DNA from: Phragmitibacter flavus
GTDB lineage: Bacteria; Verrucomicrobiota; Verrucomicrobiia; Verrucomicrobiales; Verrucomicrobiaceae
Reading direction: 5' to 3'
Length of the DNA: 64,000 bases
Assembly (NCBI RefSeq): GCF_005780165.1
Contig: NZ_VAUV01000005.1
Coordinates: forward strand, 310,001-374,000
The translations under genes and the position numbers were made by a program. The notes beneath the pieces were generated by a model that did not search any database, was not told the DNA's origin, and worked only from the letters and a program-made list of their open reading frames with translations. This document shows positions 16,709-46,743 of the stretch, in pieces. Each line of letters opens with the position of its first letter. Positions within the stretch are counted from its first letter, which is position 1.

Positions 16709-16754
16709 CCGACGAAACGTGGGCAGTCCATGGAGGTCCGACGTGCCGTCGGAC
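16709..16754. repeat. REP-like palindromes related to those around the RAYT gene
   Basis: CCGACGAAACGTGGGCAGTCCA at 16709-16730 closely resembles the 43,548 palindrome unit (CCGACGAAACGTCGGTGGTCC). It is followed by a second hairpin, GTCCGACG-TGC-CGTCGGAC (16736-16754). This suggests that the transposase at 42.9 kb acts on dispersed copies. Confidence 0.6.
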
Positions 16755-39679: not shown

Positions 39680-39846
39680 CGAAACTCTGCTCGCATATCG
39701 GCCGATGGTCAGCACGATGGGACGTTTGATGCGACCGTGCGGGTTGGTGCTTGTCACCTCTGTCCAAAACAGGGGGGTGAGGCGATTGGGGTTGCGGATT
39801 GGGAAAGTTGGGGGTTTGTTGTCGGCCCCTTTTTTCCCACCGCATT

Positions 39847-42540
39847 ATGAGCAACGACCGCCGCCGACAATTTCCTTTTGATGAGTTTGAACCGAAGTGG
39901 CAGGCGCTTTGGGATGAGAAGAAGGCGTTTCGCACGGCGGGTCCGGGGGATGCGGATTTTGATGCGTCAAAACCGAAGTATTTTGTGCTGGATATGTTTC
40001 CGTATCCGAGTGGGGCGGGTTTGCATGTGGGTCATCCTGAAGGATATACGGCGACAGATATTGTGGGTCGGTATAAGAAGTTGACCGGGTTTAACGTATT
40101 GCATCCGATGGGATGGGACGCGTTTGGGTTACCGGCGGAGCAGTATGCGATCAAGACGGGTCAGCATCCGCGCACGACGACGGAGCGAAATATTGATGGG
40201 TTTCGCGGGCAGTTGAAGCGGCTGGGTTTTGCTTATGACTGGGATCGCGAGGTGAACACGACAGACCCGGGGTATTTCAAGTGGACGCAGTGGATCTTTT
40301 TGCAGTTGTATCACTCGTATTTTGATGGGGCGACGCAGAAGGCGCGGCCGATTGCGGAGTTGGAGGCAAAGGGATTGTCGCGGGATGAGGTGGATGCGCG
40401 GAGACTGGCTTTTGTGAGTGAAGCGCCGGTGAACTGGTGTCCGGAATTGGGCACGGTGTTGTCGAACGAAGAGGTGATTGATGGCAAGAGCGAGGTGGGT
40501 GGGTTTCCGGTGGAGCGTCGGCCTTTGCGTCAGTGGATGTTGCGGATCACGGACTATGGTCAGCGGTTGATTGATGAGCTGGAGGGGTTGGATTGGCCGG
40601 AGGGGATCAAGTTGTTGCAGAAGAACTGGATTGGGCGCAGTGAGGGGGCGGAGGTGGAGTTCGGATTGCGGAATTCGGAACGCGGAATCACGGTTTTTAC
40701 GACGAGGCCGGATACGTTGTTTGGGGCGACTTACATGGTTTTGGCGCCTGAGCATGCGTTGGTTGATGTCATCGTGACGCCGGAACAGAAGGAGGCGGTA
40801 GAGGCTTATCGTAAGGTTGTGGCTGGGAAGTCGGATTTGGAGAGGACGGAACTTGCCAAAGAGAAGTCGGGGGTCTTTACCGGCGGGTTTGCGGTGAATC
40901 CGGTGAACGGGGCGGAGATTCCGGTGTGGATTGCGGATTATGTTTTGAGCACTTATGGCACGGGCGCGATCATGGCGGTGCCGGGTCATGATGAAAGGGA
41001 TTATGAGTTCGCGTTGAAGTTTGAATTGCCCATCAAGCAAGTGGTTATGCCTCCGCAACATTACGGCGAAGAATCCGTGGTCGAAGCGAAAACAACGATG
41101 GATCAGGATCGGGAATCTGTGATTCATAAAATGGTTAAGATACCAGAGGCCAAGGGAGTTGATGATTTGGTCGGGATACACAAGGCCAAAGCCTTCGCCG
41201 GAGAGGGATTTGCTATTAATTCCGGGTTTTTGGATGGCTTGTCGACGCAGGATGCGAAGCGCAATATGATTGACTGGTTGGAGGAGAAGGGTTTGGGCAA
41301 AGGGAAGGTCAATTTCAAACTGCGGGACTGGTTGTTCAGTCGTCAGCGGTATTGGGGCGAGCCGTTTCCGATTGTTTGGGAAGATGGGAAACATCGGGCG
41401 GTGCCGGAGTCGGAGCTGCCGGTGTTGCCTCCGGATTTGGAGGATTTTAAACCGTCGGGGACGCCGGAGCCGCCGTTGAGCAAGGCGACGGATTGGGTGC
41501 GGCATTCGGAGACGGCGAAGCGCGAGTTGAACACGATGCCGCAGTGGGCGGGGTCGTGCTGGTATTACTTGCGGTATTGCGATCCGAACAATGCGGAGCG
41601 GTTCATTTCGAAAGAGGCGGATGAATATTGGATGGGCTCAGCCGGGAAGCCGGGTGGGGTGGATCTTTATGTGGGCGGAACGGAGCATGCGGTGCTGCAT
41701 TTGTTGTATGCGCGCTTCTGGCACAAGGTGTTGTTTGATCTGGGTCATGTGTGCACGCCGGAACCGTTTCAGCGGTTGGTGAATCAGGGACTGATTTTGG
41801 GGGAGGACAGTCAGAAGATGTCGAAGTCGCGCGGGAATGTGGTGAACCCGGATGACGTCATTGAAGAGTATGGCGCGGATGCGTTGCGTTTGTATGAGAT
41901 GTTCATGGGTCCGCTGGAGCAGGTGAAGCCCTGGTCGATGAAGGGGGTGGAAGGCGTGTATCGTTTCCTGGCACGGGTTTGGCGTCTGGTGATGGAGACC
42001 AATCAGGAAGGGGTGTGGACGCTTTCTCCTCAGTTGCAGGACGTGGCGGTGGACAAGAAGGTGAACAAGGTGGTGCATGAGACGATCAAGAAGGTCGGTG
42101 ATGACATTGAGCGTTTGGGTTTCAACACGGCGATCAGTCAGATGATGGTGTTGACCAATGCGTTGACGCAGGTGGAGGTGCGGCCGGTTTCGGCGGTGAT
42201 GACGTTGCTGCAGGTGTTGAATCCGTTTGCGCCACATTTGACGGAAGAACTGGCGGAGCGGATTGGCGCGGCGTTTCCAGAGTATGCGAAAGACGGATTG
42301 CTGGCGCATCAAACCTGGCCGAATTTTGATGAAGCGGCGTTGGTCGTTGATGAGGTGGAAATTGTGGTGCAGGTGAACGGCAAGCTGCGTGGGCGTTTGG
42401 TGGTGCCGAAGGATTATGATCAGGCGGCGCTGGAGCGTGAAGCGATGGCGATTGAGAAGGTGCAGGAGTTTGTCGTGGGACTGACGGTGCGGAAGGTGAT
42501 CGTGGTGCCGGGCAAGTTGTTGAATATTGTGGCGAACTGA
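39847..42540 (+). CDS. leuS: Leucyl-tRNA synthetase
   Basis: The ATG at 39847 gives 897 residues beginning [28 protein letters not shown]. Signatures are [13 protein letters not shown] (HIGH), the inserted editing domain with [19 protein letters not shown] and [21 protein letters not shown], and [14 protein letters not shown]. The C-terminal anticodon-binding and leucine-specific regions are complete. A stretch around residues 395-470 ([19 protein letters not shown]...) enlarges the usual linker. It charges tRNA-Leu and edits mischarged species. The upstream region shows no T-box. Confidence 0.97.
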
Positions 42541-42618
42541 GCTGCCTTCGGCGGGGATCGGAGCTGGAAGATCAGAGATGGGGGTTGCTTTGAAGGCGAC
42601 TTCTGGTTTGTGTCTTGG

Positions 42619-44535
42619 ATGCGCGTGGCTTTGGTTCATTATTCGGCTCCTCCAGTGATTGGAGGGGTTGAGAGAGTTTTAGGGCAGCAGGCGAAGGTGT
42701 TGTTGAAGCATGGGCATGAGGTGGTCGTGGTCTGTGCGAATGAGGGGGCGATGGTGGAGGGGTGTGAGATGAGGGTGGTGGATTGGGGGGGGGGAGACCG
42801 ACGGAACGTCGGTGGTCCGACGGATGAGATGAATGATGACCGACGTGACGTCGGTGGTCCGATTGGGACTGGGAGGGCCGATGAATCATCGGCCTTGGGC
42901 TTCTTGAATGTGGAGGAGACAATCGTCAAGCACAGGCACGTGCTGCCGCATTGGCATCAGGATGGAGTTTATGCATTTGTGACCTGGAGATTGGCGGACT
43001 CGTTGCCGGGACATGTGGTGAGAGGGTGGGAAATGGAGAAGGAGATTTGGTTGGGGCATCATCCGAAGCCTTGGACGGAAGACGTGGAGAGGGAGCATCA
43101 TCGGAGGTTTTCGAAGCGGGTGAATGAGTGGCTGGACGGGGGAAGCGGGGAGTGTTTGTTGAGAAGGAAGGATTGTGCGGAAGTTGTGGTGGGAACATTG
43201 AGAAAGTTTGATGGGGTGAGGTATGATTTGTGTGCGTTTGTGGTGATGCCGAATCATGTGCATGTGGTGGCGAGGTTGAGGGAGGATTTTGGAATCGAGA
43301 AGGTGGTAAAAGGATGGAAGGAATGGTCGGCGAAGGGGATCAATGCGGTGTTAGGGAAGACGGGGAAGGTATGGGCGGTGGGGTATTTTGATCGTTTGGT
43401 GAGGGATGGTCGGCATTTGGGGAAGGTGGTGGATTATGTGGTGGGCAATCCGGCGAGGTTGAAGGGAGGGTTTGTGGTTTGGGTGGGTGAGGGGTTTGAT
43501 GACCGACGGAACGTCGGTGGTCCGATTGAAGAGGTGACGACTGAAGACCGACGAAACGTCGGTGGTCCGACTGAAGGGCTGACGAATGAGGGCCGACGTG
43601 ACGTCGGCGGTCCGAGTGGGGGTTGCCGAGGTGATGTTGTTCCCACTGGGAGGGCCGATGTGACATCGGCCTTGGGGGATTGCGTGGTGGTGATTGTGCA
43701 CAACATGCTGACAATGCCGTTTGACGATGGGGCGGCGACGAGGTTGGGGGAGATGAGTGGTGAGTGCAGGATGATCAACTGGGTGCATGATGTGGATGTT
43801 TCGCGGGAGTGGTTTGAGCAACTGGGGTTTGTGGGGCGGCATGTGGCGGTTTCGGAGGCGAGGAAGGAGCTTTTGCGCGAAAGGCTGGGAGTGGAGGAGT
43901 GTTTGGTGGTGCCGAACGGGGTGGACGTTGGGGCGACGTTGGGGTGGTCGGAAAGGCTGGAGGGCTTGAAGCTGCTGGAGCGGGAGGTGGTGATGTTTCA
44001 TCCGTCACGGGTGCTGGCGCGGAAGAACATGGAGTTGGGGATTCTTGTGGTGGAGGTGTTGAGAAAAAAACGCGGGGTGGATGCGGTTTATGTGGTTTCA
44101 GGGGCGCCTGATCCGCATCGGGTGGCTTCGGCGTCGTATGCGGCGGGATTGAGGGAGATGGTGATTGAAAAGGGCTTGGGCGACGCGGTCATTTTTGTGG
44201 GGGAAACGGGGGCAGTTTCGGATGAGGAGATGCAGGCGCTTTATGGATTGGCGGATGTGGTGTTTTTTCCGAGCAAGGCGGAGGGGTTTGGACTGCCGTT
44301 GGTGGAGGCGGCGTTGTTTGGGGTGCCGGTGTTGTGTTCGGACATTCCGCCGCACCGGGAAGTGGCGGGGGTGGATGCGGAATTTTTTGGACTTGATCAG
44401 AGCGCGGAGACGGTCGCAGAGCGGGTGATGTCGATGGTGGGAGCAAGATCGAAGGGCCGGAGAGAGGCGGCGACCCGATATGGTTGGGATCGCATTTATC
44501 AGGATTATCTTGAGCCTTTGCTTAAGGAACGCTAA
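42619..44535 (+). CDS. Glycosyltransferase family 4 protein split in frame by an inserted RAYT transposase
   Basis: The frame is open for 638 codons from the ATG at 42619. Residues 1-58 are the GT-B N-terminal strand and helix (RVALVHYSAPPVIGGVERVLGQQAKVLLKHGHEVVVVC). Residues about 353-638 continue a GT4 protein: VVVIVHNMLTMPFDDGAATR, INWVHDVD, VVPNGVDV, MFHPSRVLARKNMELGI, and the donor-site ADVVFFPSKAEGFGLPLVEAALFGVPVLCSD. Between them (about 60-352) lie palindrome-derived peptides and a complete RAYT with NHVHV. Without the insert, about 345 residues remain, near a normal GT4 length. Whether the enzyme still folds is open. The frame is uninterrupted throughout. Confidence 0.85.
   Translation: MRVALVHYSAPPVIGGVERVLGQQAKVLLKHGHEVVVVCANEGAMVEGCEMRVVDWGGGDRRNVGGPTDEMNDDRRDVGGPIGTGRADESSALGFLNVEETIVKHRHVLPHWHQDGVYAFVTWRLADSLPGHVVRGWEMEKEIWLGHHPKPWTEDVEREHHRRFSKRVNEWLDGGSGECLLRRKDCAEVVVGTLRKFDGVRYDLCAFVVMPNHVHVVARLREDFGIEKVVKGWKEWSAKGINAVLGKTGKVWAVGYFDRLVRDGRHLGKVVDYVVGNPARLKGGFVVWVGEGFDDRRNVGGPIEEVTTEDRRNVGGPTEGLTNEGRRDVGGPSGGCRGDVVPTGRADVTSALGDCVVVIVHNMLTMPFDDGAATRLGEMSGECRMINWVHDVDVSREWFEQLGFVGRHVAVSEARKELLRERLGVEECLVVPNGVDVGATLGWSERLEGLKLLEREVVMFHPSRVLARKNMELGILVVEVLRKKRGVDAVYVVSGAPDPHRVASASYAAGLREMVIEKGLGDAVIFVGETGAVSDEEMQALYGLADVVFFPSKAEGFGLPLVEAALFGVPVLCSDIPPHREVAGVDAEFFGLDQSAETVAERVMSMVGARSKGRREAATRYGWDRIYQDYLEPLLKER
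42796..42894. repeat. Left palindrome block of the RAYT element (two P1 units, one P2)
   Basis: P1 units at 42796-42820 and 42838-42862 have the form GACCGACG-nnn-CGTCGGTGGTCCGA, stem CCGACG/CGTCGG with a 3-base loop. They are followed by P2, GGCCGATGA-A-TCATCGGCC (42876-42894). In frame they read DRRNVGGP, DRRDVGGP and GRADESSALG. Confidence 0.88.
43501..43671. repeat. Right palindrome block of the RAYT element (three P1 units, one P2)
   Basis: P1 units lie at 43501-43525, 43546-43570 and 43591-43615, followed by P2, GGCCGATG-TGA-CATCGGCC (43653-43671). The order and orientation repeat the left block, and the frame again reads DRRNVGGP, DRRNVGGP, GRRDVGGP, GRADVTSALG. Confidence 0.88.
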
Positions 44536-44550
44536 GAAGATGAAACAATT

Positions 44551-46743
44551 ATGGCGCAAACTTCCCATCCCCACGATGAACAGGTGCAGCAAATCGTTGC
44601 TGCGAGTCATGCGAACCCATTCGGTTATCTGGGACCGCAGCGGTCTGACGATGGCGGAATGACGGTGCGGGCGATCCTGCCGGGGGCGCAGGGGATGGTG
44701 GTGGTGATGAAGAAATCGGGCGAGCGGATCGGGGCTTCAAGGTTGCATGAGGATGGCTTGTTTGAGGCGCGGCTTTCGGGAGAAAATTGGGGCAAGGGTT
44801 ATGCGCTGGAGTGGTCGGTGGGCGAGGGACAGGTGGTGGTGAAGGACGATGCGTATGCGTTCGGGTTGTGCCTGGGCGACCAGGACATGTATTATTTCCG
44901 TGAGGGACGGCATCAGCGTCTTTATGACGTGCTGGGGGCGCACCCCAAGGTGATGGACGGTGTGGAGGGGGTGATGTTTGCGGTGTGGGCGCCAAATGCG
45001 CGTCGAGTGTCGGTGATCGGCGATTTCAACAACTGGGATGGTCGCGTGCATCCAATGCGGAACCGGATTGAGGCGGGGTTGTGGGAGATTTTTGTGCCAG
45101 GAATTGGTTTGTATGCGCATTACAAGTTTGAGCTGGTGGGGGCGCATGGCAATTTGTTCAACAAGTCGGATCCGTTCGCGTTTTTCTCGCAAAACGGGGC
45201 GCAGACGGCTTCGCTGACCTGGGATTACAACAAGTATGAGTGGCGGGATGCGGCGTGGATGAAGCGTCGCGGGGAGGTCGATCCTTACAAGATGCCGATG
45301 AGTGTTTATGAGGTGCACTTGGGATCGTGGAAGCGCGGTCAGGACGGATTGCCGCTGACTTATCGGGCCTTGGGCGAGCAGTTGATTCCTTATGTGAAGG
45401 GACTTGGGTTCACGCATATTGAGCTGATGCCAGTGAGCGAGTTTCCGTTTGATGGATCGTGGGGGTATCAGGTGAGCGGGTATTATGCACCGACGTCGAG
45501 GTTTGGCGGTCCGGATGAGTTCCGCGATTTTGTGGATCGCTGTCATGAAGAAGGCATCGGGGTGATTGTGGACTGGGTGCCAGCGCACTTTCCAAAAGAT
45601 GCGCATGGTTTGGCGAAGTTTGATGGGACGGCGTTGTTCGAGCATGCGGACCCGCGTCAGGGCGAGCACATGGATTGGGGGACGTTGATTTTTAACTATG
45701 GTCGCAATGAGGTGAAAAATTTCCTGATCGCGAATGCGTTGTTTTGGCTGGAGCATTATCACATTGACGGCATTCGTGTGGATGCGGTGGCGTCGATGTT
45801 GTATCTGGATTACTCACGCGAACATGGGCAGTGGATGCCGAACCGCTTTGGTGGTCGTGAAAACCTCGAAGCGATCGAGTTCCTGAAGGAGTTGAACCAG
45901 CTTTGTTATGCGAATCATCCGGGCGTGTTGATGATTGCGGAGGAGAGCACGGCATGGCCGGGTGTGTCGCGTCCGGTGAGTGCGGGCGGACTGGGTTTTG
46001 GCTTCAAGTGGAACATGGGCTGGATGAACGATTCACTCAGCTACATCGAGAAGGAACCGATTCATCGGAAGTATCATCATGGCGAGGCGACGTTCTCGAT
46101 GTTGTATGCTTATGATGAAAATTTTGTGCTGGTGCTGAGTCACGATGAGGTGGTGCACGGCAAGGGATCGATGATCGACAAGATGCCCGGCGATCGCTGG
46201 CAGCAGTTTGCAAATTTGCGGATGTTTTATGGCTGGATGTGGACGCATCCGGGGAAAAAATTGTTGTTCATGGGCAGTGAGATTGGTCAATGGAAGGAAT
46301 GGAACCATGATCGCGAGCTTGATTGGGCGGTGTTGTTCGGTGAGGAGCACCGTGGATTGCAGAAATTTGTGGGTGATTTGAACCGGTTGTATACCGGGGT
46401 GCCAGCGTTGCATCGGGTGGATCATCAGCCGGGCGGATTTCAGTGGCTGGATGCGAATGCGTGGCAGGACAGTGTGTTTGTGTTTACCCGGTCGGCTCCT
46501 GGTGAGGGGACGGTTTATGTCGCGGTGAATGCGACGCCGGTGCTGCGCGAAGGTTATCGGATGGGAGTGGCGGAGGGTGGGTTTTACCGCGAGTTGCTGA
46601 ACAGTGACGCGGCTTGTTACGGCGGTTCGAATGCGGGGAACGGGGCGGGGCTGGATGCTCAGCAGGTTTCCTGGCAGGGCCAGCCGTGGTCGGTGGTGAT
46701 GACGCTGCCGCCTTTGGCAACAGTGGTGCTGGCGCGGGCTTAG
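44551..46743 (+). CDS. glgB: 1,4-alpha-glucan branching enzyme (GH13)
   Basis: The 730-residue protein has the extra N-terminal domain (NPFGYLGPQRSDDGGMTVRAILPGA), a CBM48 domain (VWAPNARRVSVIGDFNNWDGR), and a GH13 catalytic barrel: GVIVDWVPAHFPKD, DGIRVDAVASMLYLDYSR with the nucleophile Asp, MIAEESTAWPGVS with the acid Glu, and VLSHDEVVHGK. It forms alpha-1,6 branches in glycogen. It begins 15 bases after the glycosyltransferase gene, so the two may share a transcript. No glgA or glgC is in the window. Confidence 0.97.
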   Translation: MAQTSHPHDEQVQQIVAASHANPFGYLGPQRSDDGGMTVRAILPGAQGMVVVMKKSGERIGASRLHEDGLFEARLSGENWGKGYALEWSVGEGQVVVKDDAYAFGLCLGDQDMYYFREGRHQRLYDVLGAHPKVMDGVEGVMFAVWAPNARRVSVIGDFNNWDGRVHPMRNRIEAGLWEIFVPGIGLYAHYKFELVGAHGNLFNKSDPFAFFSQNGAQTASLTWDYNKYEWRDAAWMKRRGEVDPYKMPMSVYEVHLGSWKRGQDGLPLTYRALGEQLIPYVKGLGFTHIELMPVSEFPFDGSWGYQVSGYYAPTSRFGGPDEFRDFVDRCHEEGIGVIVDWVPAHFPKDAHGLAKFDGTALFEHADPRQGEHMDWGTLIFNYGRNEVKNFLIANALFWLEHYHIDGIRVDAVASMLYLDYSREHGQWMPNRFGGRENLEAIEFLKELNQLCYANHPGVLMIAEESTAWPGVSRPVSAGGLGFGFKWNMGWMNDSLSYIEKEPIHRKYHHGEATFSMLYAYDENFVLVLSHDEVVHGKGSMIDKMPGDRWQQFANLRMFYGWMWTHPGKKLLFMGSEIGQWKEWNHDRELDWAVLFGEEHRGLQKFVGDLNRLYTGVPALHRVDHQPGGFQWLDANAWQDSVFVFTRSAPGEGTVYVAVNATPVLREGYRMGVAEGGFYRELLNSDAACYGGSNAGNGAGLDAQQVSWQGQPWSVVMTLPPLATVVLARA

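Follow-up and report, generated by a model that had tools for sequence, protein, structure and literature searches.

A REP-associated transposase gene carried in frame within a glycosyltransferase gene of Phragmitibacter flavus, and comparable insertions in other genes of Verrucomicrobiota

The window, a stretch of 64,000 nucleotides from Phragmitibacter flavus (assembly GCF_005780165.1, contig NZ_VAUV01000005.1, positions 310,001 to 374,000), contains a glycosyltransferase (GT4) gene whose reading frame passes without interruption through a complete REP-associated HUH tyrosine transposase (RAYT) gene and the REP palindromes on both of its sides. The arrangement is probably a REPtron (RAYT gene plus REPs) that resides in frame within a host coding gene and is translated together with it, so that the host protein, left unspliced, has a transposase domain in one of its tolerant loops. 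Both translation and mobility are inferred here, as no RNA or protein data are available.

The fused frame and its components

The fusion occupies a single open frame of 638 codons on the forward strand, from an ATG at 42619 to 44535, with no internal stop; the ORF listing gives this one frame from an upstream GTG (42610-44535). A preliminary description, made from the sequence alone, had read this frame as unbroken, in the order GT4, REPs, RAYT, REPs and GT4, and both the ORF listing and Pfam agree. The gene lies between leuS (39799-42540, +; ORF listing and leuS survey), which carries no RAYT in this genome, and a gene for a glgB-like branching enzyme (44551-46743, +; translation judged by eye, in agreement with the preliminary description). 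The N-terminal part of the GT4 (42619-42792, +; residues 1 to 58) comprises the first Rossmann strands and a helix, as assigned by Pfam (Glyco_transf_4/Glyco_trans_4_4) and orthologue alignment. On the 638-residue product, Pfam recognizes the Glyco_transf_4 N-part, Y1_Tnp (residues 201 to 274) and Glycos_transf_1 (residues 454 to 607). The remainder of the GT4 (43678-44535, +), which comprises the latter part of the N-domain plus the C-domain, is 48-54% identical to the closest orthologues; its resumption near residue 353, as described earlier, holds once the position is corrected to about 354. With both domains detected by Pfam and the family-invariant columns kept in the alignment, the host part qualifies, by sequence, as a GT4 glycosyltransferase of the GT-B type. 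The window GT lacks a clear equivalent of approximately 15-20 host loop residues, which in relatives read NFYVKRVRSAVAG, in line with the earlier suspicion that the insert may have replaced host residues.

The RAYT (42901-43497, +; approximately residues 95 to 293) is identified by Pfam Y1_Tnp (PF01797, above cut-off), by its place in the RAYT set and tree, and by a weak match (E=0.008) to the solved TnpA_REP structure PDB 4er8. It contains the NHVH and YVVGNP motifs of a Y1/HUH transposase, with the His-Val-His codons at 43255-43263 (+) and the catalytic Tyr codon at 43435-43437 (+). It has neither a stop of its own nor a nearby ATG, and does not qualify as a stand-alone RAYT/TnpA_REP gene; by its sequence features, it is an embedded, in-frame RAYT variant. 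Given that its W-Q motif is altered (VWAVGYFDR) and that its flanks are direct, not inverted (two type-A and one type-B palindromes on the left, three type-A and one type-B on the right), the window copy may now be immobile.

Five type-A REPs (CCGACGNNACGTCGG) lie at 42798, 42840, 43503, 43548 and 43593. Their start-to-start spacings of 42, 663, 45 and 45 nt are all divisible by three, so that all five translate as DRR(N/D)VGGP or GRRDVGGP. Palindrome and REP pattern searches place REP A1 (42796-42820, +; DRRNVGGP) and A2 (42838-42862, +; DRRDVGGP) to the left of the RAYT, and the palindrome search places A3 (43501-43525, +; DRRNVGGP), A4 (43546-43570, +; DRRNVGGP) and A5 (43591-43615, +; GRRDVGGP) to its right. 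A second palindrome type occurs once on each side, in copies 777 nt apart, again a multiple of three, that encode near-identical peptides: B-left (42871-42899, +; GRADESSALG; palindrome family D4) and B-right (43648-43676, +; GRADVTSALG), the latter occupying, in the orthologue alignment, the place of the host helix that precedes the VIVHN strand in relatives. The window contains seven REP matches with up to one mismatch, versus 0.24 expected by chance. The genome contains 53 matches per strand versus 1 and 0 for a reversed control pattern. The flanking REPs thus occur in many genomic copies, as in REP-flanked RAYTs, and their position in frame within a protein gene also makes them coding REPs (REP-decorated protein, RPE). 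Two more type-A REPs, one with a mismatch, lie elsewhere in the window (16709-16752). The idea, raised in the preliminary description, that these palindromes are neutral to coding can be kept only in part: inspection by eye showed most frames of the REPs to be open, but a copy whose centre contains TGA does not have every frame open.

An AlphaFold2 model built on 57 sequences (mean pLDDT 85, pTM 0.60) assigns the GT and RAYT parts a pLDDT mostly above 90 and the REP-encoded stretches (residues 62 to 86 and 297 to 343) values below 50; with a pTM of 0.60, the relative placement of the domains is uncertain. The GT4 structure match scores Z 19.1 with the insert versus 18.5 for an insert-free orthologue, at a similar rmsd of approximately 17 Å. 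Damage by the insert was rejected as the cause of the large rmsd to solved GT4s, since the insert-free control gives the same value. The structure-match lists (Foldseek/VIA) were filled by GT4-like chains only, and the RAYT fold was not queried alone.

In the proposed mechanism, the element brings no start and no stop, and ribosomes on the GT4 mRNA would traverse the RAYT together with the REPs on either side of it and then complete the GT4. The predicted product is a single unspliced protein, in which disordered linkers encoded by the REPs tether an HUH transposase domain to the GT4 fold, within the variable loop that precedes the VIVHN strand. The host promoter would drive expression of the RAYT, and the RAYT could hardly be lost other than by a near-precise deletion that keeps the frame; it would be protected because only such a removal is tolerated. 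That the fusion is translated, that both domains function (GT catalysis included), that the RAYT still cuts REP DNA and that alleles move between cognate host genes are all inferences.

Embedded RAYTs in the family and the phylum

The distribution of the GT insertion was determined in 68 genomes of the same family, not selected on reading frame, of which 62 contain the GT orthologue. A RAYT occupies the same loop in five of these 62 (G000, the window genome; G007; G020; G044; G046), representing two genera, and is in frame in all five; no disrupted GT orthologue was found among the 62. The loop usually spans 129-231 nt, as measured between the PPVIGGVE and HNxxTMPF motifs. The RAYT-bearing distances are 1050 (window), 1029 (G007), 858 (G020), 807 (G044) and 807 nt (G046), all multiples of three and stop-free, and orthologues in which one motif was missed have an open frame of ordinary GT length. 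No relative carries the GT and the RAYT as separate genes split by a stop, which would have refuted the preliminary description; the RAYT is either absent or in frame. In G080, the GT linker (L093) has no RAYT and one in-frame REP (GGAGCGCCGACGAATCGTCGGC), with flanking residues common to G044 and G046; from its sequence, this linker is possibly the scar of a RAYT loss or a pre-insertion state. Elsewhere in the window genome, a RAYT interrupted by a TAG stop (L032, G000 C13:106637-107188), probably decaying, groups weakly in the tree with the GT-embedded RAYT of G007. An assembly or misjoin artefact is hardly conceivable: draft assemblies and MAGs do dominate the set, but in independent genomes of different genera, it is the same loop of the same gene that carries a homologous embedded RAYT with the frame intact, and the window genome has a completeness of 99.89% in 44 contigs.

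RAYT searches of the family genomes and of 388 genomes of the phylum revealed many RAYTs in very long frames. In the phylum search, by a rough hand count, about 48 of the approximately 158 RAYT matches listed lie within frames of at least 550 residues. Most non-GT cases were chosen for their long open frames, which biases this share, and many of the genomes are drafts or MAGs. Long frames with probable free RAYTs (L252, L257), without a Pfam match (L254) or with an unclear host side (L248, L262/L265, L274) were left out of the embedded set. The RAYT lies between Pfam domains of the host in LeuRS, ValRS, XseA, PriA, CarB, IspG, MetH and HypF, in mevalonate diphosphate (MVD) decarboxylase, in several HsdR, Eco57I and MmeI enzymes, and in a creatininase, a B12 radical-SAM protein, ClpB and an ADH-GFO oxidoreductase. 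Two further surveys were not frame-selected: leuS carries a RAYT in 2 of 62 genomes and clpB in 1 of 65, in frame each time, and a relative with a 98% identical ClpB C-part has an empty clpB site. In six genomes, the RAYT-bearing LeuRS is the only strong match to the LeuRS editing domain, and in four genomes, the only PriA carries the RAYT.

Alignments indicate that the insertion sites are loops of species-variable length. The LeuRS stretch that receives the RAYT, from HDERDFEFA to FLDGL, normally has 46-97 residues and varies in length between species, and the ClpB insert takes the place of the linker LQNESLTETPDKPKAQP. Loop occupancy in essential genes recalls inteins and self-splicing introns, and removal of the insert by RNA splicing (IStron or group I intron) or by protein splicing (intein), leaving a normal host protein, was considered. 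It is very unlikely, as no Rfam intron match was found in 42300-45000 at E up to 1, nor any Hint/intein Pfam match at E up to 1. Furthermore, RNA splicing requires neither an open frame nor the loss of the RAYT start and stop, yet all of these recur, and the inserts replace host residues in variable loops where an unspliced domain can be tolerated.

Embedded RAYTs retain their catalytic motifs: HUH is present in 36/36 copies and the Tyr motif in 34/36. Most are flanked by matching inverted REPs (e.g., 28/28, 26/26 and 28/28 nt). They differ from free RAYTs at their ends. In the 30 residues before the LPHW motif, an ATG is present in 1/36 embedded versus 30/35 free copies (Fisher p ∼1e-13), and free RAYTs have a stop soon after the Tyr domain, whereas embedded copies have none. 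These differences bear on the possibility that GT and RAYT are nested genes expressed separately, with the RAYT read from an internal GTG or TTG. Several such codons lie within 16 residues before the window RAYT motif, and an internal start cannot be excluded. Separate expression nevertheless appears quite improbable: without a RAYT stop, any internal start would also yield the GT C-part, and, besides the near-absence of an ATG, approximately half of the embedded copies have no ATG, GTG or TTG within 30 residues before the motif. Translation as an enzyme with an inserted domain, one of two options in the preliminary description, fits best, although direct evidence of translation is absent: five GT genes from two genera have the frame intact, the arrangement recurs in other genes, essential ones included, and the RAYT start and stop are lost.

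In three genera, a NUDIX hydrolase also has a RAYT fused in frame to its N-terminus through REP-peptide linkers (L105, G000 C5:266253-266774; L145; L147; L148; L149). These fusions are N-terminal rather than internal, and a GTG ahead of the RAYT may serve as their start. One HsdR (L139) contains additional in-frame REP-like peptides, e.g., NRRADFPVRLS twice.

Frame openness, selection and allele turnover

The five other frames contain 15, 14, 2, 6 and 2 stops over the window insert, so that the openness of the host frame is not due to stop-poor DNA. Across the embedded inserts, the other frames are open in just 2/180 cases and closed in 178/180. The distance between inverted REP arms leaves a remainder of 0, 1 or 2 modulo three in 16, 7 and 13 of 36 embedded copies, respectively. 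A cassette of fixed phase was rejected on this basis, with the proviso that the detected arms are not necessarily the true ends; the frame would instead have been fixed once the element was inserted, through selection or remodelling of the loop.

In the G044-G046 GT pair, dN/dS (Nei-Gojobori, NG86) is 0.099 for the RAYT core and 0.13 for the GT C-part. The RAYT core gives 0.066 in an ADH pair and approximately 0.11 in one NUDIX pair; in the GT and ADH pairs, the core value resembles that of the host halves or is lower. The linkers give 0.05 to 0.6, and several other pairs were saturated at silent sites and gave no ratio. For the measurable pairs only, these ratios indicate that purifying selection is keeping transposase and host as a functional protein. 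In several pairs, silent sites have diverged more in the RAYT than in the host, most of all in the NUDIX fusions (pS 0.83 versus 0.145, G001 versus G011), where the RAYT looks, from these values, as if it had been replaced in place.

Some features are compatible with a bystander fusion, in which near-stop-free REPs in genomes with few stops allow chance survival in frame while the RAYT decays: the genome is GC-rich, the REPs are mostly open and the W-Q motif of the window RAYT is changed. This scenario remains improbable in light of the closure of the other frames, the RAYT-core dN/dS of 0.06-0.11 at high dS, the conserved HUH and Tyr motifs and the five in-frame GT insertions out of five.

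RAYT lineage is tied to host gene, as the six host-gene labels on a 78-row RAYT tree require only 6 changes (minimum 5; shuffled mean 15.6). The GT-borne RAYTs of G000, G020, G044 and G046 form one clade (100/96). HsdR-borne RAYTs from different families are sisters, with L139 and L247 sharing 80% host and 82% RAYT identity. Within this association, alleles do not follow their hosts. For priA, pairs within a genus share 79% and 88% host identity with 48% and 49% RAYT identity, and pairs across families share 62-63% host identity with RAYT identities of up to 59% and 68%. Four priA copies (L261, L268, L275, L280) carry two RAYT alleles in the same PriA loop, distributed against the host phylogeny. 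Similarly, G020 and G007 are 80% identical in the GT and 47% in the RAYT, versus 52% and 64% for G020 and G044. Such discordance in PriA and GT suggests, as far as sequences can tell, a gene-specific, homing-like movement or replacement of RAYT alleles. One clade per host gene whose members diverge rapidly, or a host gene transferred together with its insert, is not excluded: a single origin of all GT-borne RAYTs was not rejected (AU p=0.46), nor was one clade of leuS-borne RAYTs (p=0.45) or of priA-borne RAYTs, and the two family leuS copies alone gave p=0.0504 for one clade. The broader proposal that in-frame RAYTs are splicing-free, intein-like homing elements, with lineages tied to host genes (GT4, priA, leuS, hsdR, metH), invading the same tolerant loop in other species and persisting as translated domains of essential proteins, is a tentative one that we hold to be possible but doubtful.

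Relation to known elements and significance

Inteins and homing-endonuclease elements lie in frame in conserved, often essential genes, occupy the same gene in distant species, are patchily distributed and have allele trees at odds with the host. The embedded RAYTs resemble them in being in frame, in essential genes, in the same gene of distant species, patchy and discordant with host trees. Unlike inteins, they have no splicing domain, lie in variable loops, carry an HUH nuclease and apparently stay in the mature protein. IStrons are IS605-type elements with a group I intron; they likewise represent a Y1-family element tolerated within genes, but here no intron was found and an open frame takes the place of RNA splicing.

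In the RAYT/TnpA_REP REPtrons described so far, the gene stands alone and behaves like a housekeeping gene (PMC2817692, PMC8266576, PMC6006769). The embedded copies share their HUH Y1 transposase, REP palindrome flanks and retained catalytic motifs, whereas here the RAYT has no start or stop of its own and forms a domain inside a host protein. In TnpA_REP subclass 2.4, REPs lie inside tnpA without breaking its frame (PMC6006769), while here the transposase lies inside the host protein. Rickettsia palindromic elements and REP-decorated proteins place palindromes in frame within protein genes, including those for DNA repair and tRNA synthetases, but add peptides of only 20-82 residues (PMC3733652), in contrast to the whole transposase gene carried in frame here. 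The verrucomicrobium Opitutus terrae had the most intragenic GTAG repeats in that study (PMC3733652). In-frame REPs are therefore already known, and whole RAYTs living in frame inside host genes are apparently unreported: the literature search, which left out subscription papers and preprints, turned up no description of a complete RAYT in such a position. A few unexpectedly long TnpA_Y1 proteins were previously discarded as fusions or annotation errors (PMC6006769), and such long 'fusion' RAYT proteins merit re-examination.

Residence as a translated, selected domain in the loops of essential enzymes, such as a cell's only LeuRS or PriA, would add a survival route for a mobile element in compact genomes that is neither intergenic nor spliced. 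It makes testable why single-copy RAYTs have been kept for so long and how their expression is maintained. The insertions also provide natural domain-insertion sites in enzymes, and the allele sets, in which the same loop holds different RAYTs, are suited to testing homing by an HUH enzyme.
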